In this document: positions 3,665-38,902 of the stretch, in pieces
Position numbering within the stretch: the first letter of the stretch is position 1
Layout of the letters: every line of letters begins with the position of its first letter
NCBI RefSeq assembly: GCF_900107965.1
Contig: NZ_FNVU01000005.1
Coordinates: 372,001 to 436,000 of the forward strand
Reading direction: 5' to 3'
Length of the DNA stretch: 64,000 bases
Source: Actinacidiphila yanglinensis
GTDB taxonomy: Bacteria > Actinomycetota > Actinomycetes > Streptomycetales > Streptomycetaceae
The notes under the pieces: generated by a model
Told to the model about the DNA's origin: nothing
The model's database searches: none
Seen by the model: the letters and a program-made list of their open reading frames with translations, nothing else
Made by a program: the position numbers and the translations under genes

Positions 3665-3725
3665 GGTGGTTTCTCTCATGTCGGATGTGCCGGTCCTGCG
3701 GCCGGCCGTGGTGATGGTGCGCATC

Positions 3726-22669: not shown

Positions 22670-23539
22670 TCAGCCCTCTTCATAGGTGTAGTACTTGCGG
22701 TGATCCAGCACCACCGACGGCTTCACGTTGAACGGCGGCATCGGCTCGGTGAGGCTGATCACGCGGCCGTGTTCCGGGTCGCTCGCCTTGAGCGGCTTCG
22801 CCGGGAGGAAGCCGGACTTCGGGTGCTTGCGCTGCCAGCGGGTCCAGATGAGGTCGATGAAGGCGTGGTGCAGCCAGAAGACCGGGTCGTTGGGCGAGGA
22901 CCCGCCGATCATGTGGCCGCCCACCCACTGGTGCACCCGGTTGTGCAGGTAGCCGCCCTCGGTGTCGCTGACGGTCCAGCCCTCCATGGTGTTCCGCAGC
23001 CCCTTCGTGCTCGGCGCGGAGTTCCACGGCGCGGTGTCGTAGGTCGCGGTCTCGAGCGCGTCGTTCAGCTCGGCGGCGGTCGGCAGCACGATCGGGCGGT
23101 CGGGGCGGCCCATGTTGCGGGTGAGGTAGTTCTCCCGCGTGACGCCGTAGGTGATCGGCCAGTTGCCGGTCTGGTACGCGAACGGGCCGGTCGTCACCTG
23201 GCCGTCGCTGGAGCGGCCGTTGCCGCCCATGAAGTCGGCGTCCCACAGGGCCGAGGTCGGGGAGCGGTCGGCGGTCCAGTCCCAGTACGGGATGGTGACG
23301 TCGGGGTCGATCATCTGCAGCTCGTGCTCGAAGACCAGCAGGAACTGCCGGTGCCACGGGAAGAAGGTGGGGGCCATGTGCGCCACCCGCAGCCCGGTCT
23401 CCCCGTCGGCGGTGAAGTACTGGGTGTGCAGCTTGACGTACTTGTCGTAGCCGCCGCTCTGCTTGAGCTTCAGCACGGCCTGCACGAAGCGGGAGCGCTG
23501 GGCGCTGGTCAGGTTCCGCTGGTTCTTCCGTGTGTACAC
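22670..23539 (-). CDS. melC2: Tyrosinase MelC2
   Basis: 289 residues. Type-3 copper monophenol oxidase that oxidises tyrosine to dopaquinone for melanin. All six copper ligands are visible: CuA His38, His54 and His63 (KLHTQ, VAHMAP, FPWHR) and CuB His199, His203 and His225 (YLHNRVHQWVGG, FWLHHAFID). It lacks its own signal peptide, as usual, since MelC1 carries it to the Tat system. GTG 23539 opens MYTRKNQRNLTSAQRS. It follows melC1 by 27 bp. The stop codon touches the 115-bp repeat array. Confidence 0.97.
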   Translation of the reverse strand: MYTRKNQRNLTSAQRSRFVQAVLKLKQSGGYDKYVKLHTQYFTADGETGLRVAHMAPTFFPWHRQFLLVFEHELQMIDPDVTIPYWDWTADRSPTSALWDADFMGGNGRSSDGQVTTGPFAYQTGNWPITYGVTRENYLTRNMGRPDRPIVLPTAAELNDALETATYDTAPWNSAPSTKGLRNTMEGWTVSDTEGGYLHNRVHQWVGGHMIGGSSPNDPVFWLHHAFIDLIWTRWQRKHPKSGFLPAKPLKASDPEHGRVISLTEPMPPFNVKPSVVLDHRKYYTYEEG

Positions 23540-23566
23540 AGGTGCGCTCCCTCGACGCTCGGTCGG

Positions 23567-24001
23567 TCAGTGGTGGTGCGCCGCGGCGGCATCGGCCAGC
23601 TGGGCGCCCCCGATCACGTCGACCGCACCACGGGCGGTGGCCAGCGGGGTCGGGTAGGACTGGTAGTGGTCGGCCATGCTGATGAAGCTGCCGTCGAACC
23701 GGCGCATCGCGCCCAGCGGCCGCCCGTCGACGAGCAGCAGCAGGCCGCTCGCGTCGGTCGAGGTGAAGCCCTGGATGCGCCGGCCGCGGTAGACCTCGTC
23801 GAACAGCGGGGTACTCACGCCCTCGCCGGTTCCTGCGGTCACGCCGGACTTCCCGTCCGAGCCCGCGGGGACCTCCCCGCCCGGTGCCTGGTCCGCGGCC
23901 GGCTGCCCGGCCGCGAGCATCGGCCGCAACGCGATCGCGGTGCCCGAGACGGCGGCGGCGGTGGTCAGCCCGGTCCTGAGCACTCTCCTGCGTGACACCA
24001 T
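23567..24001 (-). CDS. melC1: Tyrosinase co-factor/copper chaperone MelC1
   Basis: 144 residues. Twin-arginine signal (VSRRRVLRTGLTT), Gly/Ala-rich linker, then the MelC1 core: FDEVYRGRRIQGF, LLLLVDGRPLGAMRRFDGSF, DHYQSYPTPLATARGAVDVI, and a terminal HHH. MelC1 binds apo-tyrosinase, inserts copper and carries it through Tat. First gene of the melC operon. Confidence 0.95.
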   Translation of the reverse strand: MVSRRRVLRTGLTTAAAVSGTAIALRPMLAAGQPAADQAPGGEVPAGSDGKSGVTAGTGEGVSTPLFDEVYRGRRIQGFTSTDASGLLLLVDGRPLGAMRRFDGSFISMADHYQSYPTPLATARGAVDVIGGAQLADAAAAHHH

Positions 24002-24381
24002 GCCCGGCTCCTCTCGTCGGTCCCCCTCGGCTCCCCCGCCGGCCGTGGCTCTCGTCGATGGTCCTCGGCTCCCGGCCGCGGTTCATCTTGCCTCGTACGG
24101 CTGAGAATCCCGGCATTGCAGCCGATTATCAGCAAGGGTGATCCCGGAATTCATCCGGCCGAGTGATATCGCTGCGAGGGCGTGGCGTGTAATGAGATGG
24201 AAATGGATTCCGCCGTGGGTACGGGAGTTGGGGTCGGATGAGGCGATCGTATGTCCTTCCGACCATTTGCAGCACCGCCGCGCCCAGGTCGCCGAATCCG
24301 CGCGCGCCATTTCTTCGTACGTTATGACTGTCGCTCAGGAGGCGCGTCCGGGGCGTCCTTGCCGGCGAACGAGGAGTGGCC
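24002..24381. other. Intergenic region with divergent promoters (melC1 and GH26 gene)
   Basis: 380 bp, less GC-rich than the rest of the window, with AT-rich runs such as near 24120-24200 and 24310-24330. No gene accepted. It must carry the melC promoter and the GH26 promoter. Confidence 0.55.
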
Positions 24382-25506
24382 ATGGCCGATCGGCACCAGT
24401 GGTGGTCGAGGGGGAGAGTCGCGGCGGTCACGGTCGCGCTCCTGGTGTGCGGCGTGACGGCGTCGCGGCTCGGGGACGGCCCGGCCGGCAGCGGACCGCT
24501 GGGCACGGCGGCCCACGGCAGCCCGGTGGCCGCGCACGCGCGCGCGTCGTCGGCGCCGGGAACCCGGTCCGCCGGGGCCACCGGTGTGGTGCCGCCGCTG
24601 GGGGCGTTCACCGACTCCGGCAGCAAGGGCGTCGAGAGCCTCGGCGGGCTGCAGAACTGGCTCGGCGGCACCGAGGTGAGCGTCGCCCACACCTACCTGC
24701 CGGGCGACGACTGGAGCAGCATCGAGGGCGACGGGGCCCTGCTCCGCCCGTGGGCCCGGTGGACCCGCGCCGAGCCCGGCCGGCTCTTCGTGCTCAACGT
24801 GCCGATGCAGGCCGACAACGAGGGCGGGGTCCCCGACGGCGAGGTGCGCGACCTCATCGAGCAGGGCGCCGGCGGCGCGAACGACGTGCACTTCACCCGG
24901 CTTGCCCGGCAACTGGTGCGGCTCGGCGTCCCCGACACCGTGATCGTGCTCGGCTGGGAGATGAACGGCACCACGTACACCCACCGCTGCGGCCCCGACC
25001 CCGCCGGCTGGAAGACGTACTGGAACCGGGTGGTCGCTGCCATGCGGGCCGTCCCCGGCCAGCACTTCCGCTTCGACTTCGCCCCCAACCGCGGCCAGGA
25101 CGCGATCGCCTGGACCGCGTGCTACCCCGGGGACGCCACCGTCGACATCATCGGCATGGACTCCTACGACCAGCCGCCGGGGTCGACCTTCCACGACCAG
25201 GTCACCGAGCCGTACGGGCTGCAGGAGCAGGTCGACTTCGCGGCCGAGCACAAGAAGGCGATCTCCTACCCGGAGTGGGGCCTGTTCACGAACGGCGACG
25301 ATCCCGACTACATGAGCCTGATGCTCGGCTGGATCATCGCCCACCACCCGCTGTACCAGACGATCACCGACTACTGCCCGCACGGCGTGTGGAAGTGCGA
25401 CCAGAACCCCAAGTCGTCCGAGGTGTACCGGTCGCTGCTGTTCGGGCGGAAGACCGCGGCCGTCGCCGCGCCGCACGCCCCGACCCGGTCCACCGGCCAC
25501 AAGTGA
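24382..25506 (+). CDS. Secreted or membrane-anchored GH26 glycoside hydrolase
   Basis: 374 residues. N-terminal hydrophobic segment (VAAVTVALLVCGVTA), then a GH26 TIM barrel. The acid/base Glu is probably E193 in VLGWEMNG and the nucleophile E298 in SYPEWG. The family contains beta-mannanases, beta-1,3-xylanases and exo-mannobiohydrolases. ATG 24382 is 5 nt behind GAGGAG. It lies between melC and the polysaccharide operon, so it might trim an own or foreign glycan; that is inference. Confidence 0.85.
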   Translation: MADRHQWWSRGRVAAVTVALLVCGVTASRLGDGPAGSGPLGTAAHGSPVAAHARASSAPGTRSAGATGVVPPLGAFTDSGSKGVESLGGLQNWLGGTEVSVAHTYLPGDDWSSIEGDGALLRPWARWTRAEPGRLFVLNVPMQADNEGGVPDGEVRDLIEQGAGGANDVHFTRLARQLVRLGVPDTVIVLGWEMNGTTYTHRCGPDPAGWKTYWNRVVAAMRAVPGQHFRFDFAPNRGQDAIAWTACYPGDATVDIIGMDSYDQPPGSTFHDQVTEPYGLQEQVDFAAEHKKAISYPEWGLFTNGDDPDYMSLMLGWIIAHHPLYQTITDYCPHGVWKCDQNPKSSEVYRSLLFGRKTAAVAAPHAPTRSTGHK

Positions 25507-25653: not shown

Positions 25654-26112
25654 ATGCAGGCACGGATGAAGAACCCGGCGCAGATCATTCCCGCGGCGAT
25701 GCCCGCCATCGTGGAGGTGTTCAAGGCGGCCGGCAGCAGCGGGGTCGAGCACTCCACCATGGAACTGGTGCACCTGCGGGCGAGCCAGATCAACGGGTGC
25801 AGCGCCTGCGTCGACGCCGGGGTGCGCAACGCCCGCAAGGCGGGCGTCACGGACGAGCAGCTCGGCGCGGTCGCCGCCTGGCGCGAGGCGCCGTACTTCT
25901 CCGACGCGCAGCGCGCGGCGCTGGCGCTGACCGAGGCGGCGACCCGGCTCGCCGACAATCCGGCGGGCGTCTCCGACGAGATCTGGGAGGAGGCGGCGCG
26001 GCACTACACGGAGGAGCAGCTCGCCGGGATCACCCTCATGATCGGGGTCACCAACCTCTTCAACCGCCTCAACGCGACGACCCGTCAGGTGGCCGGTGAG
26101 GGTGCCTGGTAG
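25654..26112 (+). CDS. Carboxymuconolactone decarboxylase/AhpD-like protein
   Basis: 152 residues. The CxxC active site is in SQINGCSACVDAGVRNARKA, typical of AhpD-type small oxidoreductases that reduce peroxidase partners; MELVHLRASQ and LTEAATRLAD complete the core. The ATG follows GAGGAGAG. The last 44 bp overlap tail to tail with the acetyltransferase gene of the polysaccharide operon. Not a true carboxymuconolactone decarboxylase by context. Confidence 0.9.
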   Translation: MQARMKNPAQIIPAAMPAIVEVFKAAGSSGVEHSTMELVHLRASQINGCSACVDAGVRNARKAGVTDEQLGAVAAWREAPYFSDAQRAALALTEAATRLADNPAGVSDEIWEEAARHYTEEQLAGITLMIGVTNLFNRLNATTRQVAGEGAW

Positions 26113-27391
26113 CCGGTGCGGCCTTCCCCGCCGGGGCCTCGCGTGACCGCCGCCGGCGCCGCAGTTCGCGCAGTGCGGCGCGGAGGGCGGCCAGCGCCCG
26201 GCGGGTGAGGAGGGAGGGCAGGGACCGGCGGGTGGACAGCAGCAGCCGGGTGTTGGAGGTGGGGACGGGGCGCCAGTGGGACTTGTGGGGCTCGGCGCCC
26301 CTGAGCATGCTGTGGACGGGCCGGTCGGCGGCACTGGTGAGGCGGGCGCCGTGCCGGGTGAGGAGGGTGTTGAGGTCGACCTTGGCCGCGCTCAGGGCGG
26401 GGAGGTCGGCGCCGTAGAGGTAACCGCCGGCCAGGGCGGGCGACAGGACGGTGAGGTTCACGGCGACCACCGCGCCGCGCAGCCGGAACTCGGTGAGCAG
26501 CGCCTCGCCGGATTCCGTCATCAGGGCGCAGGCGTGGGAGAGGTGCGCGGCGAAGCGGGGCCGGAGGTGCTCGGGGGTGACGCCCCGGCCCTCCCACTGC
26601 GCGGCGTGCAGCCGCAGCATCGTGGCGACGGCGGCGGGCACGTCCGCGGCGGGCACGTCGTGCTCCTGGATGCCGGCGGCGTCGATCTTGCGCAGGTTGG
26701 AGCGGATGCGCTGGCCGCGTGAACTGCCCACCCGGGCGATGAGTTCGGACATCGGGCCACCGGGCAGTTCCAGGCACTCGGAGTCGGCGAGCATCCGCTT
26801 GGGGCCGGGCCACAGGTCGTACAGCCGCCCGGCGGCGCCGCCCGGGGGCACCTCGCCCAGGTCGACCAGCGAGCCCCGGGACGCCCGGCGCATCCCCCGC
26901 ACCAGGGCGGCGGCCACCGCCTCGCCGCCCGCGCCGGGGTCGACGAGCGCGTCGGAGAAGTCCGTGACGGCGCCGCCGAGCGGGACGAGGGCCGGCAGCG
27001 GGCGGTAGGTGCGCATCAGCGCGAACGCGCCCACCAACTCCCCTTGGCCGCCGGACTCCGTGCCCTCCCCGGCCGGGTCGCCGCCGCGCCGCACCAGGAC
27101 GATCCGCAGCCGCCCCGGCCGGCCGTACCAGAGCCACCACGAGTACAGCCAGCCGTGGCTCTGGAACGGGGTGGCCCGCGGGCAGGCGCGGTGCAGGCGC
27201 GCCCACTGCGGGGCGAGCGCGGCGAACTCGCCGGGGTCGCGGCAGATGTGGACGTCGAGTCCGGCCGCCATGGCCGGTGCCGAAGCGTCCGTCGGGTGAG
27301 CGGCGCCGGTCGGCGGTGCCTCCGGAGTCCTCGGGCGAGGGGTGCCGGTGACGGCCGGGGGCGCCTGCGTGTCGGGGCCTTCCACGCTCAC
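26069..27391 (-). CDS. GNAT/FemAB-like acetyltransferase, last gene of the polysaccharide operon
   Basis: 440 residues. A Thr/Pro-rich N-terminus of about 45 residues precedes a BioF2/FemAB-like double GNAT region: FQSHGWLYSWWLWYGRPGRL, SRGQRIRSNLRKIDAAG, LSAAKVDLNTLLTRHGARL. Enzymes of this type acylate or aminoacylate sugars or lipid-linked intermediates and are common in extracellular glycan loci. GTG 27391 overlaps the previous stop as GTGA and has no strong ribosome-binding site, so translation is probably coupled. The very basic C-terminus (RRRRRSRE) could contact the membrane surface. Confidence 0.85.
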   Translation of the reverse strand: MSVEGPDTQAPPAVTGTPRPRTPEAPPTGAAHPTDASAPAMAAGLDVHICRDPGEFAALAPQWARLHRACPRATPFQSHGWLYSWWLWYGRPGRLRIVLVRRGGDPAGEGTESGGQGELVGAFALMRTYRPLPALVPLGGAVTDFSDALVDPGAGGEAVAAALVRGMRRASRGSLVDLGEVPPGGAAGRLYDLWPGPKRMLADSECLELPGGPMSELIARVGSSRGQRIRSNLRKIDAAGIQEHDVPAADVPAAVATMLRLHAAQWEGRGVTPEHLRPRFAAHLSHACALMTESGEALLTEFRLRGAVVAVNLTVLSPALAGGYLYGADLPALSAAKVDLNTLLTRHGARLTSAADRPVHSMLRGAEPHKSHWRPVPTSNTRLLLSTRRSLPSLLTRRALAALRAALRELRRRRRSREAPAGKAAPATRHPHRPPDGSSR

Positions 27392-28068
27392 ACCGCCGCG
27401 CGTTCGGGCCGGGGTTCGGACGGGTGGACCGACGGGGCCGGCAGCGCGGTGCGGGCCGGCTCGCCGTCCTCGCGCCGGGGCCGGACCAGCAGGACGAGGG
27501 CGCCGAGCAGGCCGCCCGCGCTCGCGCCGACCGCGCCCGACAGCGTCGCGGACGGGGAGGAGGGCGCGGCGGGGGCGGCGGCGGGGGAGAAGACGAGCAG
27601 CCGGACGCCGGTGCTCGCGGAGTCGCGGTTGCCGGTGGCCGCCAGCGAGCGGGCCACGCCGTTGGCGATGGTGGCGGCGGTCCGCGCCCGGGACGAGCTG
27701 CCGGTGACCGAGATCATCGGGGCGTCCGGTGAAGTGGCCGCCTGCACGTGACCCTTGAGGTCGGCGGCGGCGGTGTGGGTGGCGGCCTGGGCGCCGGCCA
27801 GCACCGCGGAGCCGGTGACGATCCGGCCGTACGCCTGCGCGAAGCCGAGCGCGGTCGTCGCGTCGGTGCCCTTCTGCGGTACGACCATCACGTACCCGGT
27901 GGCGGCGTACTGCGGGGTGGCGGCGAGCCCGTAGCCGAGGCCGCCGAGCAGCCCGATGCCGATGCCCAGCGGCACCGGCAGCCAGCGCGGCAGCGCGCGT
28001 CGTGGCGCGCGCCGCCTGCGGTCCTGCGGGTCGCTGGTGTCGCCGGTGTGGTTCACGGTGTGTCTCAC
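27388..28068 (-). CDS. Wzz-like polysaccharide chain-length regulator without kinase domain
   Basis: 226 residues. N-terminal span (WLPVPLGIGIGLLGGLGYGL), an outer domain of about 110 residues (GYVMVVPQKGTDATTALGFA, MISVTGSSSRARTAATIANG), a second span (LSGAVGASAGGLLGALVLLV) and a short tail. This is the two-span layout of Wzz/Wzc-type co-polymerases that set chain length with the Wzy polymerase. The bacterial tyrosine kinase part is missing and none is encoded nearby. GTG 28068 overlaps the previous stop. Confidence 0.82.
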   Translation of the reverse strand: MRHTVNHTGDTSDPQDRRRRAPRRALPRWLPVPLGIGIGLLGGLGYGLAATPQYAATGYVMVVPQKGTDATTALGFAQAYGRIVTGSAVLAGAQAATHTAAADLKGHVQAATSPDAPMISVTGSSSRARTAATIANGVARSLAATGNRDSASTGVRLLVFSPAAAPAAPSSPSATLSGAVGASAGGLLGALVLLVRPRREDGEPARTALPAPSVHPSEPRPERAAV

Positions 28069-29291
28069 TTCTGCGCGGGTGTCGGGGTGGTGGGTTCGGC
28101 GGTGGCCGCGGGTGCAGCGGGTGCCGCGGGCGGTGCCTGCGGGGGTGTGGCGGCCCGGGCCGGGTGGGGTACGGTCGCTGCTGCTTCCTGCCGGTGGGGC
28201 CGCGGACGGTGCCGCTCGCCCGCCTCGGCGTACAGCGCCATGACGCGCTGCGCGGTGCGGGCGATGTGGTAGATCCCGACGGCCGCCGGGACGGGCAGCC
28301 GGCGCGGTCCCGCGCGATGCTCCGCGGCCAGTGCGGCGGGCAGTTCGCCCAGGTCGATCCGGCGGGTGCCGGGCGCGTCCTCGGCGGGCAGGTCCTCCAC
28401 GGCGGGGCAGGCCGTGTGGAGCACGGGCAACCCGGCGGCCAGTGCCTCGACCACCGCAAGCCCGAACGCCTCCTCGGCGGAGGCCGAGACGAACAGGTCC
28501 ATGGCGGCCAGCAGCGCGGGCACGTCGGGGCCGCTGGAGTCGGTGACGTGCACCCGGTGCTGGAGGTTCAGGCGGTGCACGAGCCGCAGCAGCGGCACCC
28601 GTTCGGGTCCGTCGCCGGCCAGCACCAGGTGGCTGCCGGGCACGTCGGCGACCGCCCGGACCAGCGCGTCGAACCGCTTTCCCGGCACCTGCCGGCCGAC
28701 CCCGCCGACCACGTACGCGTCCTCGGGGATGCCGAGCCGGACCCGGGCGGCGGAGCGCACCTTCGGGTCGAAGCGGAAGGGCTCCGGGTCGATGCCGTTG
28801 GGCGCGAGGTGCACGCGCTCGCGGGGCACGCCCCAGCGCACCAGCCGCTCCGCGACGGTCGTGGACACCGCGAGGGTGCCGTGGCCGAGCCGTTCGGTGG
28901 CGCGGTACAGGGCGCGGGTGCCGAGGGTCAGCGGGCGGCCCTCGATCTGGGTGGCGCCCAGCGAGTGCTCGGTGGCCACGACGGTGCGGACGCCGGCCAG
29001 CCGCGCGGCGAGCCGCCCGTAGACACAGGCCCGGTACAGGTGGGTGTGCACCACGTCGTAGCGGCCGGCGCGGATGAGCGCGGTGAGCGGGCGCAGCACG
29101 CCCACGTCGCGGTTCCCGGTCATCCCCAGGTGGTGCACCCGGACGCCGTCCGCCTGGATCGCGTCGGCCACCGGGCCGGGGTCGGTGAGTGTGAGCACCT
29201 CGCAGTCGGCCTCCAGGTGCGGGAGCAGCAGGCGCAGTTGCTGCTCCGCGCCGCCGACGTTGAGGCCGGTGATGACGTGCAGGACCCTCAT
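28065..29291 (-). CDS. Glycosyltransferase family 4 (GT-B fold)
   Basis: 408 residues. Opens MRVLHVITGLNVGGAEQQLR with the GGAE loop; the C-terminal donor domain has VGRQVPGKRFDALVRAV and the EX7E element EEAFGLAVVEALAAGLPV. It should transfer a sugar from a nucleotide donor to the lipid-linked repeat unit at the inner membrane face. The last 40 residues form a Pro/Ala/Thr tail. ATG 29291 overlaps the previous stop (ATGA) and follows GGAGG. Confidence 0.92.
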   Translation of the reverse strand: MRVLHVITGLNVGGAEQQLRLLLPHLEADCEVLTLTDPGPVADAIQADGVRVHHLGMTGNRDVGVLRPLTALIRAGRYDVVHTHLYRACVYGRLAARLAGVRTVVATEHSLGATQIEGRPLTLGTRALYRATERLGHGTLAVSTTVAERLVRWGVPRERVHLAPNGIDPEPFRFDPKVRSAARVRLGIPEDAYVVGGVGRQVPGKRFDALVRAVADVPGSHLVLAGDGPERVPLLRLVHRLNLQHRVHVTDSSGPDVPALLAAMDLFVSASAEEAFGLAVVEALAAGLPVLHTACPAVEDLPAEDAPGTRRIDLGELPAALAAEHRAGPRRLPVPAAVGIYHIARTAQRVMALYAEAGERHRPRPHRQEAAATVPHPARAATPPQAPPAAPAAPAATAEPTTPTPAQK

Positions 29292-30076
29292 GCCGTGCCT
29301 CCTGCCGGCACGGATCCGGCGGGGAGCGGGGCGAGCCGGGGCCGCCGCACCCGGTGCAGCAGCCGTTTGGCGTGCAGCCGGGGGGAGTTGTCGGCCTGGC
29401 CCACGTACGCGCGTGGCAGCGCGTGGCCGCATGCCAGCGGCCCGGGGTCGACCGCGCAGGCGTAGTCGTATCCGGCCCGCCGGACCGCGGCCACGGTGCG
29501 CGGGTCGACCGCGCCGTAGGGGTGGCAGAAGCCGGCCGGGACGCTGCCGGTGATCTCCGCCAGCAGCCGCCTGCTCTCCTGGAGTTCGGCGTCGAGTTCG
29601 TGGTCGTCCAGGGTGGTCAGGTCGCGGTGCAGCAGGCCGTGCGAGCCGATCTCCATGCCGGCGGACCGCGCCCGCCGGATGCCGTCGGCGGTGAGCAGCT
29701 GCTTGCGCGGGCCTTCCGGGTCCCAGACGTTGCTGCCGCCGAGCCGGCCGGGCAGCGCGAACACGGTCGCGGTGTGGCCGTACTCGCGCAGCAGCGGCAC
29801 CGCCTCGGTGAGGAAGTCGGCGTAGCCGTCGTCGAAGGTCAGCCCGACCAGCCGGGCGGCTCGGCCGCGGGCCCGGGCGGTCAGCAGCTCGCGCATGCTG
29901 ACGCCGGTCAGGCCGTGCCGGCGCAGCCAGCGCAGCTGGCGCGCGAGCCGGTCCGGGGTCACCGTGACCAGGTACGGGTCGCCGGCCCGGCGGTCGCCCA
30001 CCGAGTGGTACATCAGCGTCCAGGGTGCCGGGCGGCCGGTGTGGACACCCGCGGGGAGGAGGAGGTCAGCGGTCAT
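29288..30076 (-). CDS. Polysaccharide deacetylase (NodB-homology, CE4)
   Basis: 262 residues. NodB motifs: LVGLTFDDGYADF (catalytic and metal Asp), EIGSHGLLHRDL (metal His pair, SHxxxH) and FCHPYGAVDP. Enzymes of this class remove N- or O-acetyl groups from polymers. There is no signal peptide, so it either acts in the cytoplasm on precursors or leaves by a non-classical route; this is unusual for CE4 enzymes acting on finished polymer. ATG 30076 overlaps the previous stop (ATGA). Confidence 0.9.
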   Translation of the reverse strand: MTADLLLPAGVHTGRPAPWTLMYHSVGDRRAGDPYLVTVTPDRLARQLRWLRRHGLTGVSMRELLTARARGRAARLVGLTFDDGYADFLTEAVPLLREYGHTATVFALPGRLGGSNVWDPEGPRKQLLTADGIRRARSAGMEIGSHGLLHRDLTTLDDHELDAELQESRRLLAEITGSVPAGFCHPYGAVDPRTVAAVRRAGYDYACAVDPGPLACGHALPRAYVGQADNSPRLHAKRLLHRVRRPRLAPLPAGSVPAGGTA

Positions 30077-31863
30077 GGACGGCCCTTCCGTGTGACGATG
30101 GCGAGCAGGTCGGGGACTTCGGGCACCCGGGCGGCGAGCGCGGCCGCGGCGAACACCGCGGGCACCGCCACCGCGCAGGCGGCCACGGCGACCGCCGGGT
30201 CCGGCAGCCGGTGCGCCAGCGCCCACCCGGCGGCGGTCGCGCACAGCGCGGCCAGCGCGATCCGCGCGATGCGGGGCGCCACGGCCCGGGCCCGGACGGC
30301 GACGGTGTGGGCGCCCAGGCCGCGCAGCAGCAGGGCGGCCGTGACGGTGATGCCGAGCGCGTTGCCGGCCGCGATGCCGTACACGCCCCACGGCCCGGCG
30401 GCGGCCGCGTCGGTGACCACGGTGACGAGCAGGCCCAGCGCCATCGCGGCGGCCGGGTACCAGGTCGGGCCGGCCGCCGAGAAGTACGGCCGGACCAGGG
30501 CGCCCACCAGGCTCTGGCCGAGCAGGCCGAGGGCGTAGACCCGCATCACCGTCGCGGTGGCCGCGGTGTCGGCGGCGGTGAACTCGCCGCGCTGGAAGAG
30601 GACGTCGATGATCTGCGGGGCGCACGCGACCACGTAGGCGGTGCCGAGCAGCACCACCAGGCAGGCGAGCGCCAGGTCGCGTTCGACCCGCTGCCTGGCC
30701 TGCTCCAGGTCGCCGCCGGCCAGCGCCCGCGACAGGACCGGGAAGGTGACCGTCACGATCATCACCGACAGCGCCATCGGCAACTGGGCGACCTTCTCCG
30801 CGTAGTTGAGGTGCGAGATCGCCCCTGCGGGGAGCGGTGCGGCGAAGAACCGCTCGACCAGCACCTGTGCCTGCCGGCTGAGGGTGAACACGACGACCGG
30901 GGCGAGCAGCGCCAGTCCGAGCGGGTTGCCCGGGACCGGCCCGGCCGGGCCGGGCGGCGTGGCGCGCAACACCTGGACGAAGGACGGCAGTTGGACGGCG
31001 ATCATCAGCGCGCCGCCGACCGCGACCCCGGCGGCGGCCGCCTTCACGCCGAGCCTGCCGTGCAGGGCGAGGAGCACGGCGACGATGCCGGTGTTGTACG
31101 CGATGTAGATCGCGGCGGGTGGCACGAAGCGGCGGTGCGCGCGCAACGCGGCGCTGAGGTAGCCGGCGACGCCGAAGGTGAGCACGGTCAGCGCGGTCAG
31201 CCGGGTGCACGCCACGGCGGTGGCCGGGTCGGCGAGGCCGGGGGCGAGGACGCGGACGACCCAAGGGGCGCCCGCGGCGAGCGCGGCGGTCAGCACCGCG
31301 AGCGCGGCGAGCAGGCGCGGCAGGGTGCCGCGCACCAGGGAGCGCGTGCCGTCGCCGCGGGCGAGGACCGCGCTGAAGGCGGGCACCATCAGCAGCGCCA
31401 TCGCGTCCTCGATCAGGACCGTCGCCGCGATCTCGGGGATCGTCCACGCCACGAGGAAGGCGTCGCTCTCCGCGCCGGCGCCGAACAGGTGGGCGATGCC
31501 CTGGTCGCGGACGAGGCCGAGGACGGAGCCGGCGACGCTCAGCCCCGCGGTGACCGCCGCCGCGTGTGCCATGCGCGAGGGGCGCGGCGCCGCGTGCGCG
31601 CCGCGGGTGCGGGGCGGGCGTACCTCGATCGGCTCGGGCGGCAGCGCCCAGACGTCGGGCGGGTCGGGGAGGAAGGCCGATCCGGCGGACGGGTGGGCCG
31701 GGTGGAAGGAGTCGGCCGGGTGGGTCCACAGGTCGTAGGGGGCTCCGTCGACGCTTCCCGCGGCGTGCGGGTCCGGCGCCGCCTGCCGCGCCGGCCTCCT
31801 CCAGGGTTCCGCGTCCTCGGGCGGGCCCTCGCCCGCGGGCCGCGGGACCTCCGTGCTCGTCAT
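30073..31863 (-). CDS. MurJ/MviN-family lipid-linked oligosaccharide flippase (Wzx role)
   Basis: 596 residues with about 14 membrane spans starting MAHAAAVTAGLSVAGSVLGL at residue 98. Typical MOP-superfamily segments include GLVRDQGIAHLFGAGAESDA and LNYAEKVAQLPMALSVMIVT. In this operon it most likely flips the undecaprenyl-linked repeat unit, like Wzx, and is not the housekeeping lipid II flippase. The first 97 residues form a Pro-rich, probably disordered cytoplasmic tail with HPADSFHPAHPSAGSAF. ATG 31863 overlaps the previous stop. Confidence 0.88.
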   Translation of the reverse strand: MTSTEVPRPAGEGPPEDAEPWRRPARQAAPDPHAAGSVDGAPYDLWTHPADSFHPAHPSAGSAFLPDPPDVWALPPEPIEVRPPRTRGAHAAPRPSRMAHAAAVTAGLSVAGSVLGLVRDQGIAHLFGAGAESDAFLVAWTIPEIAATVLIEDAMALLMVPAFSAVLARGDGTRSLVRGTLPRLLAALAVLTAALAAGAPWVVRVLAPGLADPATAVACTRLTALTVLTFGVAGYLSAALRAHRRFVPPAAIYIAYNTGIVAVLLALHGRLGVKAAAAGVAVGGALMIAVQLPSFVQVLRATPPGPAGPVPGNPLGLALLAPVVVFTLSRQAQVLVERFFAAPLPAGAISHLNYAEKVAQLPMALSVMIVTVTFPVLSRALAGGDLEQARQRVERDLALACLVVLLGTAYVVACAPQIIDVLFQRGEFTAADTAATATVMRVYALGLLGQSLVGALVRPYFSAAGPTWYPAAAMALGLLVTVVTDAAAAGPWGVYGIAAGNALGITVTAALLLRGLGAHTVAVRARAVAPRIARIALAALCATAAGWALAHRLPDPAVAVAACAVAVPAVFAAAALAARVPEVPDLLAIVTRKGRP

Positions 31864-33272
31864 CGGGCGGGCCCGTCGGCGGAGTGGAGGGCCCACCAGG
31901 CGGTGAGGCCGAGCAGGACGGCGGTGAGGGTGGTGGAGGGGCCGCCGATGTCGGCGTAGAGGAAGTCGACGGACTGCCACAGCAGGAGGCCGACGGCGGC
32001 GAGCCCGGGGGCGACGGCGCCGCCGGAGCCGAGGGCGCGCGGCGCGCGGCGCGCGCGGTGCAGGCGGGCGGTGCCGGCCGCGAGGAGGGCGGCCCAGGAC
32101 CCGGTCAGCAGCGCGCAGCCGAGGAGGCCCTGCTCGGAGAGGGTGAGCAGGTACATGTTGTGCGGGGAGAGCAGGGGTTCGCGGGTGAACGTCTGCCCGG
32201 CGCCGGCGGTGTCGCTCCCGGAGTCGAGGGCGAGGGAGGCGTGGGAGTCGCGCTCGTCGGGGAAGCGTTTGAGGCCGACCCCGGTGGCGGGGTGCTCGCG
32301 CCACATCGACAGGGCGGCCGACCAGAGGGTGTAGCGGTCGGTGACGGACTGGTCGGGCGCGTCGGTGACCTGGGTGATGCTGTCCAGGCGCTGGGTGATC
32401 ATCTGGGAGCCGACCCCGACCCCGCCGACCAGGAGCACCGCGCAGGCGGCGAGCACCCCGAGGACGCGAAGGGCCTGCCGCCACCCGGCGAGCAGCGTCA
32501 TCGCGGTGAGGGCGAGCGCGGTCGCGATCCATGTGCCGCGGCTGAAGGACACGGTGAGCGGCACCAGGAGCAGGGCGGCGCAGACGGCCGCCCCGGTGCG
32601 TACCGCGCGGCGGCCGGGCGCGAGGGCGTACCCCGCGGCGATGACCAGGCCGTACGCGACGACCGTGGCCATGCCCATGATGTCGGAGGGCCCGAACGTG
32701 CCGACCGCGCGGACGTCCTCGCCCTGGTACGAGGCGCCGGTGCCGGTGGCGTACTGCCACACCCCGATCCCACCCTGGACCAGCGCGAGGGCGACCACCG
32801 CGCCCGCGACCACCGCGAAGTCGCGCCGGTCGCGCAGGAGGAGCACCAGCGCGGCGGGCACGAGCACGAACACCTGGGCGTAGCGCAGGAATCCGGTCAC
32901 CCCGGCGCCGGGGTCGGGCGAGGTGATCGCCGCGACCGCGAAGCCCACCACGGGCGCGCCGAGCACGATCGCCGCGGCCGGGGTGAGCAGCCGCCGGCGG
33001 TCGCGCAACAGGCGGACGGCGCAGGCGAGTACGAGCACCGCGGAGGCGGCGTCGGCGGGGGTGACCTTCCCGGAGGTGGTGACGTCCCCCGGGGTGACCG
33101 GCGCGGCCAGCAGGGCGATGGTCGCGAGGGCGGGCAGCAGGTGGGCGTACGGGGCGAGCCGGCGGAGCAGCGGTGCGGGCGCCGCTGCGCGCGGGGGCGC
33201 CGGTACGGGTGCCGGCCCGCCGCGGTGGGTGGCGGGGGCGGTGCGGCCCGGCAGCGCGGGGGTCCAGGTCAT
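31860..33272 (-). CDS. O-antigen ligase/Wzy-type polymerase
   Basis: 470 residues with about 12 spans and a large loop (TDRYTLWSAALSMWREHPAT, GLKRFPDERDSH, LSPHNMYLLTLSEQG) that carries the Arg/Glu-rich signature of Wzy_C/WaaL proteins. It should polymerise or ligate lipid-linked glycan units outside the membrane. The N-terminal 35 residues are Pro/Ala-rich. Its ATG overlaps the previous stop as TGATG. Confidence 0.88.
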   Translation of the reverse strand: MTWTPALPGRTAPATHRGGPAPVPAPPRAAAPAPLLRRLAPYAHLLPALATIALLAAPVTPGDVTTSGKVTPADAASAVLVLACAVRLLRDRRRLLTPAAAIVLGAPVVGFAVAAITSPDPGAGVTGFLRYAQVFVLVPAALVLLLRDRRDFAVVAGAVVALALVQGGIGVWQYATGTGASYQGEDVRAVGTFGPSDIMGMATVVAYGLVIAAGYALAPGRRAVRTGAAVCAALLLVPLTVSFSRGTWIATALALTAMTLLAGWRQALRVLGVLAACAVLLVGGVGVGSQMITQRLDSITQVTDAPDQSVTDRYTLWSAALSMWREHPATGVGLKRFPDERDSHASLALDSGSDTAGAGQTFTREPLLSPHNMYLLTLSEQGLLGCALLTGSWAALLAAGTARLHRARRAPRALGSGGAVAPGLAAVGLLLWQSVDFLYADIGGPSTTLTAVLLGLTAWWALHSADGPAR

Positions 33273-35296
33273 CAGCTACCGCCGAACCGGAAGAACGAGG
33301 TCGCGGTGCGGACGAGGATCGCGATGTCCTGCCACAGCGACCAGCTGTCGATGTAGTGGTTGTCGAACCGGGCGCGGTCCGGGATGGAGGTGTCGCCGCG
33401 CAGGCCGTTCACCTGGGCGAGGCCGGTGATGCCGGCCGGCATCCGGTGCCGGTCCTGGTAGCCGGGCAGTTCGCCGCTGAACTTCTCCACGAAGAAGGGG
33501 CGTTCGGGGCGCGGCCCGACCAGGCTCATGTCGCCGCGCAGCACGTTCCAGAACTGCGGCAGCTCGTCCAGCGAGGTGCGGCGCAGCAGCCGGCCGACCG
33601 CGCTCATCCGGTGGTCGTGGGCGACGTTCCAGCGGGTCGCTGCCTCCTGGTCGTCGGCCGGCCGCAGGGTGCGGAACTTCAGCAGGGTGAACGGCCGCCC
33701 GCCCAGGCCGATCCGCTCCTGCCGGAACAGCACGCCCGGCCCGTCCGCGAGGCGCACCGCCAGCGCGCATCCGGCCAGAGCGGGTGCCGCCGCGGTGAGC
33801 GCGAGCCCGGAGAGCACGATGTCCAGCGCCCGCTTGCCGCGCCGCCCGGCGCCGCGCCCGCCCGCCATCGGGCGGCACGCGTAACCCCACAGGTGCGGCG
33901 GTGCGATCCGGCCGGGCGCGTCCGCGCCGGTGGCCTCCGGCCGGTGTCCGGCCGGGTCGACCTGCCAGATCCGGCAGCCGTGCGCGGCCAGCAGCGCGAC
34001 GGCCCGCTCCGTGGCGGGCCCGGCCGGTCCGACCACCACCGCGTGCCGCACCGCCTCGCGCACGGCGATCCGGGCGATGTCCGCGGCGGCGGTCGTGACG
34101 AGGTGGGGGAGGGCAGCGGGGACACCGGGGGCGAACTGGCCGGGCGGACCGGGGGGATACGGCGCGGGCGCGCCCGGTACGGCGAGCGCCTCGGCCTTCG
34201 CCGTGCGGCGGGCGAGGGATTCGCGGAGGTGGGGCCCCGGCGGGTGGGCGAAGCCCGGGAACACCGGTGCGGCGAGGTCGTGCCCGCCGGGACCGGAGGG
34301 GGGTGCCGGGGCGGTGATCACCACCGGGGCGAGGCCGTATTCGGGGTGGGCGCGCAGCGCCGCGGCGAGGTCCTGCGCGGCCGGTGCGGCACCGATGACG
34401 AGGGTGCGGGCCGGAGTGCGGCGCGCGCGGTGCCGGTGCAGACGGTGCGCGAGGGCGCGCAGGAAGACGGCCGCGCATCCGGTCAGCGCGGTGGCGTCGA
34501 GGAGTTGGGACCAGCCCAGCGCACCGTGCGGCGCGGTCGCGGCGGTCGCGGCGGCGGCCAGCCCCCAGGCGAGGACGGTGCCCAGCGCGATCGCCGGCAC
34601 CTCGTCCAGCGCGGCGGGCGTGAGCGCCGGCCGGTAGAGCCCGGCTCTTCGGTGGGCGGCGAGCAGCACGCACAGCAGGACGGCGGGCAGCACCGGGTTC
34701 CCGGCGAACCCGACCGTGCACAGCCCGAACAGTCCGGCCAGGCAGTCCGCCGCGGCGAGCACGCCGCCGCGCGACAGCCGGCCCGCGAGGGCCGGCGGGC
34801 GGGCGTCCGGGGCCGGTCCGGCCGCGCGGTCGCCCCGCTCGGGCGCCGCGGGCCGGGCACCGGCGCCCGCCTCCGGCCGGGCGTGCGGCTGGGGGACGAC
34901 GAGCCGCAGATCGGGCTCGTCGGTGCGGTCGGGGGCCGTCGCCGGGACGTGCCGCTGGGCCGGGTCGCCCGCGGTGGGCGCCGTTCCGAAGCCCGGCCCG
35001 GGAGGGGCCGGCGCCGGGGTGAACTCGCCATAGGGGAAGCCGGGTGGGGCCGCGGCCCCCGCACCGGCGGCCGCTCCCGGAATGGCGCCAGTTCCGTACG
35101 GGTCGCCGTACGCCGTGTCGCCGAAGGCGGGGCCCGGGTAGGCGGCGCCGGGGTAGACGGCGCCGGGGTACGCCGCGCCCGGGTAGACCGCATCGCCGTA
35201 TGCCGCGTCGCCGTACGGCGGGAGGCCGGTCTCGGGCCAGGGCGGCGGGGCGATGTCGTGCGGGACCGAGTGGTCCGGGGTCGAGGGGCGGTTCAC
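33272..35296 (-). CDS. Polyprenyl glycosylphosphotransferase (WbaP/CpsE-like initiating enzyme)
   Basis: 674 residues. The C-terminal 200 residues form the bacterial sugar transferase domain (RRGKRALDIVLSGLALTAAA, FTLLKFRTLRP, LRRTSLDELPQFWNVLRGDM, SLVGPRPE), which loads a sugar-1-phosphate on undecaprenyl phosphate. Before it come four spans and a nucleotide-binding-like middle domain (TLVIGAAPAAQDLAAALRA). The N-terminal 180 residues are low-complexity with repeats of AYGDAVYPGAAYPGAVYPGA type. GTG 35296 overlaps the previous stop as GTGA. Confidence 0.92.
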   Translation of the reverse strand: MNRPSTPDHSVPHDIAPPPWPETGLPPYGDAAYGDAVYPGAAYPGAVYPGAAYPGPAFGDTAYGDPYGTGAIPGAAAGAGAAAPPGFPYGEFTPAPAPPGPGFGTAPTAGDPAQRHVPATAPDRTDEPDLRLVVPQPHARPEAGAGARPAAPERGDRAAGPAPDARPPALAGRLSRGGVLAAADCLAGLFGLCTVGFAGNPVLPAVLLCVLLAAHRRAGLYRPALTPAALDEVPAIALGTVLAWGLAAAATAATAPHGALGWSQLLDATALTGCAAVFLRALAHRLHRHRARRTPARTLVIGAAPAAQDLAAALRAHPEYGLAPVVITAPAPPSGPGGHDLAAPVFPGFAHPPGPHLRESLARRTAKAEALAVPGAPAPYPPGPPGQFAPGVPAALPHLVTTAAADIARIAVREAVRHAVVVGPAGPATERAVALLAAHGCRIWQVDPAGHRPEATGADAPGRIAPPHLWGYACRPMAGGRGAGRRGKRALDIVLSGLALTAAAPALAGCALAVRLADGPGVLFRQERIGLGGRPFTLLKFRTLRPADDQEAATRWNVAHDHRMSAVGRLLRRTSLDELPQFWNVLRGDMSLVGPRPERPFFVEKFSGELPGYQDRHRMPAGITGLAQVNGLRGDTSIPDRARFDNHYIDSWSLWQDIAILVRTATSFFRFGGS

Positions 35297-36516
35297 CGGG
35301 CGGGCACCTCGACGTCCTGGAGCGGCGAGGGACGGGTCGCGGGCGGTGGCGCGAGCGACGTGTACAACGCGCCGACGGCCGCGGCGGTGCCGCGGACGTC
35401 ATGGCGGGCGCGGACGTCGGCGAGGGCGCGCAGCCCGGTGGCGGTACGGGTCGCGGGGTCGGTGAGCAGCCGCAGCAACGCGCCGGCGAGCGCGGCCGGT
35501 TCCTCCGGCGGCACGACGCACAGCTCGGTGTCGGCGGCGGGCAGCGCCTCGCGGGCGCCGCTGACGTCGGTGGCCACGACCGGCCGCGCGCACGCCATCG
35601 CCTCCAGCGGCGCGAGCGCCATCCCCTCCCAGCGGGAGGGCTGCACCACCACGTCGGCGGCCTGGTACCAGGGCAGCGTGTCGGCCGCGGCCCCGGCGAA
35701 CAGCACACCCGGGGGAGCGTCGTGCAGCAGCCGCTGCCGGTCCGGGCCGTCGCCGACCAGCGCCAGGCATGCCGTGGGCAGTCGCGCGACCACCGCGGAC
35801 CAGGCGCGCAGCAGGACGTCCTGGCCCTTCTGCGGGCACAGCCGCCCCACGCACACGACCAGCGGGGTCTCGTCGTCGAGGCCGGCGAGCGCGGGCAGTG
35901 CCGCCCGCGCGGAAGAGTGCCGCAGCGGCGGGCGGAAGCGGGCGGTGTCGACGCCGTTGGGGACGACCGCCCAGTCGGCCCGTACCCCGTGCCGCACCCC
36001 GGAGTCGCGTTCGGCGGCGCTGACGCACAGCACGCGGTGCGTCCAGCGGGTGGCCGCCCGCTCCCAGCGCAGCGCCGCCCGGGCGGCCGGGCCGGACACC
36101 GCGTCGTAGGACCAGGCGTGCGGCTGGAAGACGGTGGGGACGCGGCCCCTGGCGGCCAGCCGGCCGGCGAGTCCCGCCTTGGAGCTGTGCAGGTGCAGCA
36201 GGTCGGGGCCGGCGGCGCGGATCAGCCGGGCGACGGACCGGACTTCGGCGGGCAGCGCGGCGCCGGGCGAGCGGCGGGCGGGCCAGGGCATCACCTGCGC
36301 GCCGCGGTCCGCGGCGGCCGGGCCGAGGTCCCCGCCGGGCGGGCAGGCCACCACGACCCGCGCCCCCTGGGCGGCCTGCGCGCGCACCAGGTCGGCGACG
36401 ACGCGGGCCACCCCGCCGTCCACCGGCTGCGCCACGTGCAGCACCGTCAGTCCGTCGAGCCGTGGCCCGTCGGCTCCGGGGGCCGACGGGTCCTGGTCGT
36501 CTTGGTCTTGCGGCAT
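35293..36516 (-). CDS. Glycosyltransferase family 4, first gene of the polysaccharide operon
   Basis: 407 residues. N-terminal domain with LTVLHVAQPVDGGVARVVAD and LLHLHSSKAGLAGRLAA; C-terminal domain with VVCVGRLCPQKGQDVLLRAW and the EX7E motif WEGMALAPLEAMACARPVVA. Adds a sugar to the lipid-linked repeat unit. ATG 36516 is behind AAGGGAAC; the in-frame ORF upstream lacks a site and enters the promoter region. All eight genes to 26069 follow with overlapping stops and starts. Confidence 0.92.
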   Translation of the reverse strand: MPQDQDDQDPSAPGADGPRLDGLTVLHVAQPVDGGVARVVADLVRAQAAQGARVVVACPPGGDLGPAAADRGAQVMPWPARRSPGAALPAEVRSVARLIRAAGPDLLHLHSSKAGLAGRLAARGRVPTVFQPHAWSYDAVSGPAARAALRWERAATRWTHRVLCVSAAERDSGVRHGVRADWAVVPNGVDTARFRPPLRHSSARAALPALAGLDDETPLVVCVGRLCPQKGQDVLLRAWSAVVARLPTACLALVGDGPDRQRLLHDAPPGVLFAGAAADTLPWYQAADVVVQPSRWEGMALAPLEAMACARPVVATDVSGAREALPAADTELCVVPPEEPAALAGALLRLLTDPATRTATGLRALADVRARHDVRGTAAAVGALYTSLAPPPATRPSPLQDVEVPAR

Positions 36517-36958
36517 CGCGCGCCGTTCCCTTTCTCCGGGACCCGGAGACGTCCGAGGTCCGGTAGGTACCGCGGTCCGCCGATCGGTCGGGGTGGTCGC
36601 CCCGAGCACCGGTGGGCGGTGATCAGCGGATCGCGTGCAATCAACGAATAGCGTGCCTGTCAGGTAATCCCCTTGAATCCTCAGCACACGGTCGCAGACG
36701 ACCCCAGGTAACTCACGCAGGACGCGCGGCACCGCGGACAGCTGCTGTGAGCTGCCCGTTTCTTATGACCATCGGATTTGACCTGCGGGAGGGTGTGCCG
36801 GGGTCACATGCCGATATTCACTCGTGTGGGGGAATGTGTAATGCACGATGATCGGCAGCGATCCGTTCGGGTGAAGGATCATTACCAACCGGCGGTCACG
36901 CTGTTGATCAGACCGGACCCTGGTACCGGGGCCCGCTCTCTTCCCAGAAGGACCAATC
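36517..36958. other. Divergent promoter region: polysaccharide operon and rodlin
   Basis: 442 bp with no gene. It contains AT-rich patches (36640-36670, 36755-36780, 36815-36850). TGCCGAT (about 36809) and ATCGGCA (about 36851) form a wide inverted repeat, and GATCC / GGATC a small one near 36868-36889. It must hold the promoters of the eight-gene operon and the rodlin gene, which could therefore be coregulated. Confidence 0.55.
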
Positions 36959-37369
36959 GTGATCAAGAAGCTCCTCGCCACGGCCGCCGTCGCCGCCTCG
37001 CTCGCGGGTGTCTCCGCGACGGTCGCGCCCGGCGCGATGGCCATCGGCGACGAACAGGGCACCACCACCGCCAACGGCAACGGCTCCGAGCAGAGCTACG
37101 GCAACACGTACACCAGCGGTGTGATGAGCCCGTCGTTCGCGCTGGTCCAGGGATCGCTCAACAAGCCCTGCATCGCCCTGCCGGCCAAGGCGAACCTCGG
37201 CTCGCTCGTCGGCGTCGTGCCGATCAGCGTCCAGGACCTGAACGTGCTGACGTCGCCGCAGAACCAGCAGTGCACCGAGAACTCCACCCAGTCGCAGGGC
37301 GACGAGCCGCTGTCGCACATCCTGGACGACCTGCCGATCCTGTCCGGCAACGGCACGGCCAACCACTGA
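36959..37369 (+). CDS. Rodlin (first copy)
   Basis: 136 residues. Signal peptide cleaved near GAMAIGDEQ, then the rodlin domain: EQGTTTANGNGSEQSYGN, ALVQGSLNKPCIALPAKANL, QDLNVLTSPQNQQCTENSTQ, with two conserved cysteines. Rodlins (RdlA/RdlB) are secreted aerial-hypha and spore surface proteins that help organise chaplin fibrils into paired rodlets. GTG 36959 follows AAGGA by 8 nt. Highly similar to the copy at 39458-39868; both lie on the plus strand and flank two chaplins. Confidence 0.96.
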   Translation: MIKKLLATAAVAASLAGVSATVAPGAMAIGDEQGTTTANGNGSEQSYGNTYTSGVMSPSFALVQGSLNKPCIALPAKANLGSLVGVVPISVQDLNVLTSPQNQQCTENSTQSQGDEPLSHILDDLPILSGNGTANH

Positions 37370-37449: not shown

Positions 37450-37789
37450 CGCCGTAGGGAGAACGAGCCGGAGCTTCCGGAACCGCTGGGAACCGCCGGA
37501 ACGGCCCGGGCGGCACGTCGACCGGGTGGTCCGGAATTCACCCGCACCCTTTTCCGTACCGGCGCCGGGTCGTGATTTCCCGGCGGCGTCCGCTCGCGCC
37601 TTTCCGGTGTGAGGAATTTCCGCGCCCATTCGGGTGGATGGTGTACTCCGGGGGCCGTTCGGGAGTTTCCTCGGCACAAGTGCCATCGTTGATCCGGTCG
37701 GCAGCGGTGTGCTCGGGCGAGGAATTGCCCGGCGGCCGTCACGAAGGCCGTGGCGGTGCACGACGCCGTTTCCGGAAAAGGAGTTCACC
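37450..37789. other. Upstream region of the short chaplin gene
   Basis: 340 bp, no gene accepted. Short AT-rich runs near 37550-37625 and 37660-37700 are the likely promoter area of the chaplin gene. Confidence 0.45.
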
Positions 37790-38029
37790 GTGAAGTTCTC
37801 GAAGATCGCAGCGGTCGCCGCCGGCACCCTCATGGCAGCCGGTGCCGCTGTCCCCGCGTTCGCCAACTCCGGCGCCGATGCGGTCGACGCCGGCTCCCCG
37901 GGCGTGCTGTCGGGCAACGTCATCCAGGTCCCGGTGCACGTGCCGGTCAACCTGTGCGGCGACACCGTCGACGTCATCGGGCTGCTGGACCCGGCGTTCG
38001 GCTCCACCTGCGTCGACGCCGACAACTGA
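37790..38029 (+). CDS. Short chaplin
   Basis: 79 residues: signal peptide (KIAAVAAGTLMAAGAAVPAF) followed almost at once by one chaplin domain (GSPGVLSGNVIQVPVHVPVN, LCGDTVDVIGLLDPAFGSTC). The LLDPAFG variant replaces the common LLNPAFG. Two cysteines present. GTG 37790 follows AAGGAG. Similar in build to ChpD-H. Secreted, self-assembles at the hyphal surface. Confidence 0.96.
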   Translation: MKFSKIAAVAAGTLMAAGAAVPAFANSGADAVDAGSPGVLSGNVIQVPVHVPVNLCGDTVDVIGLLDPAFGSTCVDADN

Positions 38030-38173: not shown

Positions 38174-38665
38174 ATGCGACACATCCTGAGCCGGAGCCTG
38201 CTGACCGTCGCTGCCGCGAGCAGCGTGATGGCCGTGACAGGGGGGTACGCGCAGGCGGATGCGGGGGGCGGGAGCACATCGACCGGATCGCCCGGCATCC
38301 TGTCGGGCAACTCGGTGGACGTTCCGGTGCATGCGCCGGTCAACGTGTGCGGCGACAGCGTCGACGCAGTCGGGCTGCTGAACCCCGCGTTCGGCAGTTC
38401 CTGCGGCAACGACGCGTCCCCCGCGCCGACCACCCCGCCGCGGCAGGTCCCCCCGCCGCGCACCGAGCAGGTTCCGCCGGCGCCCGAGGCGCCCCCGGTC
38501 AAGCCGGTCGTGGTGCACCAGCGGCTGGCGGAGACCGGGCTCGACCACCGCGAGATCGGTCTCGCGAGCGCGCTCGGCGCGGCGCTGCTGCTGGGCGGCG
38601 CGGTGCTCTACCGGCGTTCCCAGAGCGCCTCCCGGGCCGCGCGCGCCACCGCCCGTACGCGCTGA
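38174..38665 (+). CDS. Wall-anchored chaplin with one chaplin domain and LAETG sorting signal
   Basis: 163 residues. Signal peptide (cleavage near GYAQADA), one chaplin domain (GSPGILSGNSVDVPVHAPVN, VCGDSVDAVGLLNPAFGSSC), a Pro-rich wall spacer (APTTPPRQVPPPRTEQVPPA), the class-E sortase motif LAETG, a membrane span (IGLASALGAALLLGGAVLYR) and a basic tail (RRSQSASRAAR). Classical long chaplins ChpA-C have two chaplin domains before the anchor; this one has only one. A GAAAGAAG site precedes the ATG. It sits 145 bp after the short chaplin. Confidence 0.95.
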   Translation: MRHILSRSLLTVAAASSVMAVTGGYAQADAGGGSTSTGSPGILSGNSVDVPVHAPVNVCGDSVDAVGLLNPAFGSSCGNDASPAPTTPPRQVPPPRTEQVPPAPEAPPVKPVVVHQRLAETGLDHREIGLASALGAALLLGGAVLYRRSQSASRAARATARTR

Positions 38666-38902
38666 CGGTGTTCCGGCGCAGGACGGAAAAATGCCTTTCG
38701 TCACTGAAAGGTGATTAGTAGGAGAACTGCGCCAAGGTTCCGCACGTACGAGTGATTGTCCTTGCTGTCCTTCTGTTTCCGTTTCCTGTCGATCGGCGCG
38801 GTCGTTGTGCACGGCGCCGGACTTCGGCGTCCGACGGCGTTCCACGGCTGCTCGACTTCCCAGGGTCGAGCCGCCGGCTTTCGGCTCAGGAAAGGGTGGC
38901 AA

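Follow-up and report, generated by a model that had tools for sequence, protein, structure and literature searches.

A probable Wzx/Wzy-type exopolysaccharide operon, with a proposed GH26 hydrolase partner, beside the chaplin and rodlin genes of Actinacidiphila yanglinensis

A stretch of 64,000 nucleotides of the Actinacidiphila yanglinensis genome (contig NZ_FNVU01000005.1, positions 372,001 to 436,000), here called the window and numbered from its first letter, carries eight overlapping genes, A to H, that lie between the melanin genes and the genes for the chaplins and rodlins of the hydrophobic sheath. On balance we think it fairly probable that A to H form a dedicated Wzx/Wzy-type exopolysaccharide operon with a hydrolase of its own, and that the Actinacidiphila operon uses a sigma-BldN-type promoter, its product being deposited with the sheath. 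The direct basis for this reading is the gene content, the domains of the products, the conserved gene order, co-occurrence with a GH26 hydrolase gene, and a common promoter-like element. The operon itself is real, conserved and ordinary in kind, and it is apparently unstudied: no paper on it was found in the literature searched, and in the papers checked for locus tags the genes named were those for melanin, chaplins and rodlins, or unrelated ones.

All eight open reading frames (ORFs) are on the minus strand, from an ATG at 36516 to a stop at 26069, and all seven junctions overlap: A/B, F/G and G/H by GTGA, B/C by TGATG, and C/D, D/E and E/F by ATGA. Alternative in-frame GTG starts are found a few codons further in at the F/G (28056) and G/H (27385) junctions. 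The original prediction of an eight-gene block with every junction overlapping is thus borne out. Among 57 aligned loci, five of them duplicates of others, and with the start codon taken as the one closest to the preceding stop, which biases the counts towards overlap, the four-base A/B overlap is found in 55; C/D overlaps in 52, E/F and F/G in 46 each, G/H in 44 and B/C in 15, while D/E is ATGA in 16 and another overlap in 40. Overlapping gene ends and starts are common in high-GC operons, and they do not imply the fixed stoichiometry that had been proposed. Of 72 distinct long loci, 70 keep the order A-B-C-D-E-F-G-H, the two exceptions being one in an assembly rich in undetermined bases (L073) and one in Actinomycetospora (L074), where A follows H. 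In a sample of 396 genomes of the phylum the pathway is almost confined to the Streptomycetaceae: the gene C profile matched 13 genomes, 11 of them in that family, and the other two matches are short loci with relatives of C and G, one also with a piece of H.

What would such an operon make? The domain assignments support a Wzx/Wzy-type polysaccharide pathway. Gene A (35293..36516) encodes a predicted GT4 glycosyltransferase (Pfam Glyco_trans_1_4, 1.4e-35; Glyco_transf_4, 2.4e-32), as does gene F (28065..29291; Glyco_transf_4, 1.8e-25). Gene B (33272..35296) encodes a predicted initiating polyprenyl glycosylphosphotransferase (Bac_transf, 3e-61), which at 310.8 bits is above the NCBIfam cut-off of 295.55 for exopolysaccharide polyprenyl glycosylphosphotransferases (TIGR03025). 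The product of gene C (31860..33272) is a membrane protein of the Wzy/O-antigen-ligase type (Wzy_C, 2e-19, 70.3 bits against a cut-off of 31.7). By family C would be a Wzy-type polymerase, the choice of polymerase over ligase activity being a prediction. Might C instead be a ligase, with the operon serving to glycosylate some secreted protein or to decorate the cell wall with a short oligosaccharide? The best NCBIfam match of C is indeed a putative O-glycosylation ligase, TIGR03097, at 51.2 bits and under the cut-off of 188.1. C keeps company, however, with the Wzz-like G and with a secreted polysaccharide hydrolase, and its fusion to D in three relatives fits Wzx/Wzy coupling; we consider a ligase improbable.

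Gene D (30073..31863) encodes a MurJ-type flippase, the proposed Wzx (Pfam MurJ, 1.4e-61, 208.9 bits); none of the Wzx family models searched matched it. D as a true lipid II flippase was rejected, since the NCBIfam MurJ equivalog cut-off of 235.55 is missed by D (231.6) and also by its relatives in L053 (216.8) and L074 (208.2). Two full MurJ proteins are encoded elsewhere in the genome (L001 958-3327 and L002 208-2715, both on the minus strand; 400.8 and 443.4 bits), so that D is probably a third, diverged MurJ-type protein of this genome and not its lipid II flippase. In three relatives (L074, L096 and L114) C and D are a single ORF of 1016 to 1210 codons, with both the Wzy and the MurJ domain confirmed in L074 and L114, and this fusion ties D to the polymerase. 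In another locus (L059) the flippase and deacetylase genes, D and E, form one ORF.

Gene E (29288..30076) encodes a predicted CE4-type polysaccharide deacetylase (Polysacc_deac_1, 4.6e-27) in which the catalytic residues D82, D83, H146 and H150 are at least 95% conserved over 78 aligned rows; prediction found neither an export signal nor a membrane segment. Gene G (27388..28068) encodes a small protein, tentatively a Wzz-like chain-length protein, that had zero matches in a Pfam search and scored 29 bits with TIGR01006, whose cut-off is 296. Gene H (26069..27391; Acetyltransf_6, 5.6e-17) encodes a predicted FemX-fold, tandem-GNAT acyl or aminoacyl transferase. The best solved folds for its AlphaFold model (mean confidence, pLDDT, 83.5) include FemX, FemA, MprF and the aminoacyl-tRNA-dependent Sba18, and a sequence search of the PDB with the H profile gave zero matches. 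The families first assigned to A through F and to H are upheld by the Pfam and NCBIfam matches, "FemAB-like" being a fair description of H by predicted fold; the Wzz-like label of G has a sub-cut-off match behind it.

The likeness of D, E and H each to peptidoglycan enzymes raises a further question: is the block a set for modifying peptidoglycan, in which D would be a lipid II flippase of the MurJ type, E a peptidoglycan deacetylase and H a cross-bridge enzyme like FemX? B and C would have no role in such a pathway, the genome has its two full MurJ proteins, and E has, by prediction, neither an export signal nor a membrane segment, so that we would be very surprised if this proved correct. 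A second family resemblance, to the XrtA/PEP-CTERM exopolysaccharide system, was also rejected, on the scores of five proteins. NCBIfam models of that system are matched by A, B, C, E and F, and every score falls far under its cut-off (TIGR03088, 128.6 bits against 409.05; TIGR03097, 51.2 against 188.1; TIGR03013, 190.9 against 393.35; TIGR03006, 29.5 against 276.2).

The partner with the strongest association with the block was overlooked in the original prediction. Gene I (24376..25506, plus strand), located between melC and gene H and convergent with H, encodes a secreted GH26-type glycoside hydrolase. It is above the Pfam Glyco_hydro_26 cut-off (24.3 bits against 20.2), the top fold matches of its structure model are the TIM-barrel lichenases and mannanases of GH26, and two glutamates, E195 and E300, which we take to be the catalytic pair, are invariant in 20 aligned sequences. 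In an even sample of 121 genomes of the family C is found in 90 and I in 91; 89 genomes have both, 29 have neither, one has C alone and two have I alone, these sets having been compiled by hand with some match-less genomes not listed by name. In 68 of the 72 distinct long loci the GH26 gene is no more than 5 kb from H. In one genus (g3) the relative of I is often elsewhere in the genome (e.g. G068), and adjacency is therefore usual rather than universal. We propose gene I as the ninth part of the system.

The same company is kept within the genus. Among 35 Actinacidiphila genomes C is found in 29, and H, a rodlin and a GH26 ortholog (at least 62% identity) each occur in 30; a thirty-first GH26 match is weak. 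The same five genomes (G008, G010, G014, G026 and G030) are without C, H, the rodlin and the GH26 ortholog; a sixth, 71% complete (G016), is without C only. The joint loss of block and rodlin is a genus-level pattern, and could be a single loss. An in-place deletion was not evident in three of the block-less genomes (G026, G008 and G010), where the 20 kb on the matching side of CobL contain none of the block-adjacent window genes; the only matches there are weak ones, to distant proteins of the window. The synteny comparison leaves out G017 and G033, two Actinacidiphila genomes that have the block but on broken contigs.

How is the operon regulated? Rodlin 1 (36959..37369, plus strand), identified from its sequence and relatives, is divergent from A; we presume the name rodlin, there being no match to a family model. 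Beyond it on the plus strand are two chaplin genes, a short one at about 37784-38029 (start approximate) and a long one at 38174-38665 (Pfam ChpA-C, 3.9e-25 and 1e-22). Unbiased dyad counting in three sets of upstream regions found the same dyad before rodlins, short chaplins and gene A. The promoter-like element of the operon, TTACC-N16-CGTTG at 36642..36667 (minus strand), is the sole perfect match in the window, and matching elements with one mismatch lie upstream of rodlin 1 (36882..36906, plus strand) and of the short chaplin (37666..37691, plus strand). The window has nine one-mismatch copies where 1.6 are expected, three of them at rodlin 1, the short chaplin and a sheath-like gene.

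A search of relatives for TTACC-N15/16-CGTTG with at most one mismatch, made after five duplicate loci and all rows scoring below 200 bits had been dropped, puts the element before gene A in 21 of the 27 loci from Actinacidiphila against 0.25 expected, 17 of the 21 being perfect; in one of the 21 (L037) it is at a different position. In the same genus it precedes rodlin 1 in 14/27, the short chaplin in 13/27 and the long chaplin in 0/26, and in other lineages chaplins in 20/30 and rodlins in 0/10. Control upstream regions gave 0/56 for GH26, 1/43 for MelC2, 1/72 for B, 0/77 for C and 0/79 for F. The MelC2 count bears on the suggested link to melanin, for which support does not extend beyond position. 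According to passages of two papers, sigma-BldN drives the chaplin and rodlin genes in S. venezuelae (PMC4125116, PMC4255298), which makes it the natural candidate for the operon's element. The Actinacidiphila operon is thus predicted to have an extracytoplasmic function (ECF) promoter of the chaplin/rodlin type, and the sigma factor to be sigma-BldN.

Two other regulatory candidates were set aside. A site at 36859..36874 (plus strand), one mismatch from the BldM-WhiI (group II) consensus given in the part of PMC4125116 consulted, is more likely the rodlin's: the rodlin starts 85 bases downstream, in the direction in which the site reads, and the upstream regions of gene A elsewhere have no consistent copy. 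We retain the site as a lead. For Streptomyces a variant of the promoter-like element, TGACC-N16-CGTT (L077, L107-L109), was considered and dropped, as it falls within the end of the upstream gene.

We infer the enzymatic steps of the pathway from the families of the enzymes, and the identity of the sugars, the sigma factor, and the timing and location of the polymer are proposed in the same spirit. B would put the first sugar phosphate on undecaprenyl phosphate, and A and F, as retaining GT4 enzymes, would extend it to a short repeat unit of some three sugars. E, which seems to be cytoplasmic, would take off an N-acetyl group, and H would acylate or aminoacylate the amine so freed; the presence of the deacetylase together with the FemX-fold protein makes an amino-sugar-modified polymer plausible, the charge first proposed for it being conjectural. 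D would then flip the lipid-linked repeat and C polymerise it, with G affecting chain length, and the secreted GH26-type I might trim or release the polymer. In Actinacidiphila, transcription from the predicted sigma-BldN promoter would have the polymer deposited while the hydrophobic sheath is being built.

Are there precedents? By content the closest characterised cluster is wps-3 of Actinoplanes missouriensis (AMIS_58080-AMIS_58180), which in passages of PMC13390465 is described as having GT4, Wzx-, Wzy- and Wzz-type proteins and a polysaccharide deacetylase, as here, along with a BioF2-like acyltransferase, and as being transcribed during sporangium formation. By the same description, the comparison not being one of sequences, wps-3 differs in having an aminotransferase, a monooxygenase, a dioxygenase and a different Wzx domain, and a GH26 enzyme is not named in those passages. 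The imp cluster of A. missouriensis with the adjacent gimB is likewise a polysaccharide cluster of a spore former beside a secreted hydrolase, and that hydrolase is reported to digest the matrix polysaccharide (passages of PMC12691653). Unlike the present system, imp/gimB has a GH5 hydrolase and GT2 and Alg6/Alg8-type genes, and neither a deacetylase nor a FemX-type protein is named in the passages seen. These Actinoplanes clusters are published precedents (PMC12691653, PMC13390465) for the making of a developmental matrix by a cluster of this sort that has a hydrolase gene next to it.

The neighbourhood tells a more divided story. The Actinacidiphila arrangement runs rodlin/chaplin, A to H, GH26, melC. 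Some Streptomyces have melC and chaplins beyond A, with GH26 and both chaplins and rodlins beyond H. The module is thus placed in differing arrangements in the two genera, yet retains its neighbours. A relative of a chaplin or rodlin is present in the locus stretch in 57 of 63 long loci of Actinacidiphila and Streptomyces (22/22 in Actinacidiphila, 30/35 in a group that is mostly Streptomyces, 5/6 in g9, probably Streptomyces). In S. coelicolor chpF is SCO2705, and chpA, chpD and rdlA are SCO2716 to SCO2718, as given in part of the published record; we infer that the operon lies between them.

One could argue that the operon makes a general exopolysaccharide for vegetative growth, adhesion or biofilm, its vicinity to chaplins, rodlins and melanin being an inherited neighbourhood with no common function. 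In four other genera (g3, g10, g11 and g14) the block is without chaplins or rodlins nearby in all eight loci, and apart from melC in the same eight, and the single Actinomycetospora locus has no chaplin or rodlin neighbour either. Over the 121 genomes rodlins are found in 45 of 90 with the Wzy gene and 11 of 31 without it (Fisher p = 0.21), so that no association is seen and dependence of the block on rodlins is rejected at family level. Beyond Actinacidiphila the promoter-like element precedes gene A in 1 of 48 loci. Against a general exopolysaccharide stand the element in 21 of 27 Actinacidiphila loci, the absence of block, GH26 ortholog and rodlin from the same five of 35 genomes, and the neighbours kept through rearrangement; we regard it as possible, though the less probable explanation. 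Several points nevertheless count against the main reading: the empty neighbourhoods of the other genera, the 1/48, and further that the five block-less genomes retain 5 to 9 chaplin domains, so that the polymer is not required for having chaplins; that deletion of wps-3 was without phenotype, in the part of PMC13390465 seen; that the assignment of G is weak; and that a published sigma-BldN consensus was not found in the literature searched. The sheath link is lineage-specific: for Actinacidiphila it stands as a prediction about regulation, but as a rule for the whole family it fails. Of the earlier proposal that the glycan is produced with the sheath during aerial growth, the neighbourhood, and in Actinacidiphila the common element, remain in support, but outside that genus the element is all but missing; likewise the interval, when compared across relatives, is stable in Actinacidiphila and Streptomyces but not in the four other genera or Actinomycetospora.

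Chaplins and rodlins are themselves well studied. A glycan partner made by a neighbouring operon, seemingly co-regulated in one genus, was not described in the literature searched. In Actinacidiphila the operon and the coat-protein genes may be expressed together, given promoters of the same kind. A bolder and rather speculative version is that the polymer forms a saccharide layer, so far unrecognised, in the sheath of aerial hyphae and spores. It would be controlled by sigma-BldN, with amino sugars deacetylated and then aminoacylated by the FemX-type enzyme; chaplins and rodlins would assemble on it, and the dedicated GH26 enzyme would cut it at dispersal. Streptomyces matAB (poly-beta-1,6-N-acetylglucosamine) and cslA/glxA (a cellulose-like tip glucan) are described as making Streptomyces surface glycans. 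If the reading of a Wzx/Wzy-type operon serving the sheath is correct, a surface polymer of that type would join these. Both are synthase-dependent systems, and we know of no Wzx/Wzy genes in either. The constant GH26 partner offers a route to the identity of the polymer, since gene I should cut it.

Other features of the region deserve mention. The tyrosinase MelC2 and its cofactor MelC1 were assigned by family matches (22670..24001, minus strand). The flanks first described, melanin on one side and chaplins and rodlins on the other, are correct, but gene I and a carboxymuconolactone-decarboxylase-type gene intervene between melC and H. The latter (25654-26112, plus strand) is convergent on H and overlaps its end, and L080 is the one other locus, among the long loci compared, in which it was seen. 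A group of Actinacidiphila genomes (L101-L105) has, between GH26 and H, an additional rodlin and a protein related to the secreted one encoded at 20684-21517, which places rodlins on both sides of the block. A second rodlin gene of the window lies at about 39458-39868; between the chaplins and this gene is one for a secreted protein (38756-39301, plus strand) with a chaplin-like leader, a mature start probably near 38904 and zero Pfam matches, and a one-mismatch copy of the promoter-like element is found at this gene (38782-38807). In some Streptomyces loci (e.g. L077 6085-7260, plus strand) a gene for a DUF3344-like secreted protein (25.5 bits, cut-off 27.2) immediately precedes gene A. Near the start of the window a GH92-type glycosidase gene with PKD-like repeats (3726-7127, minus strand) lies beside a phosphoesterase gene (1688-3724, minus strand).

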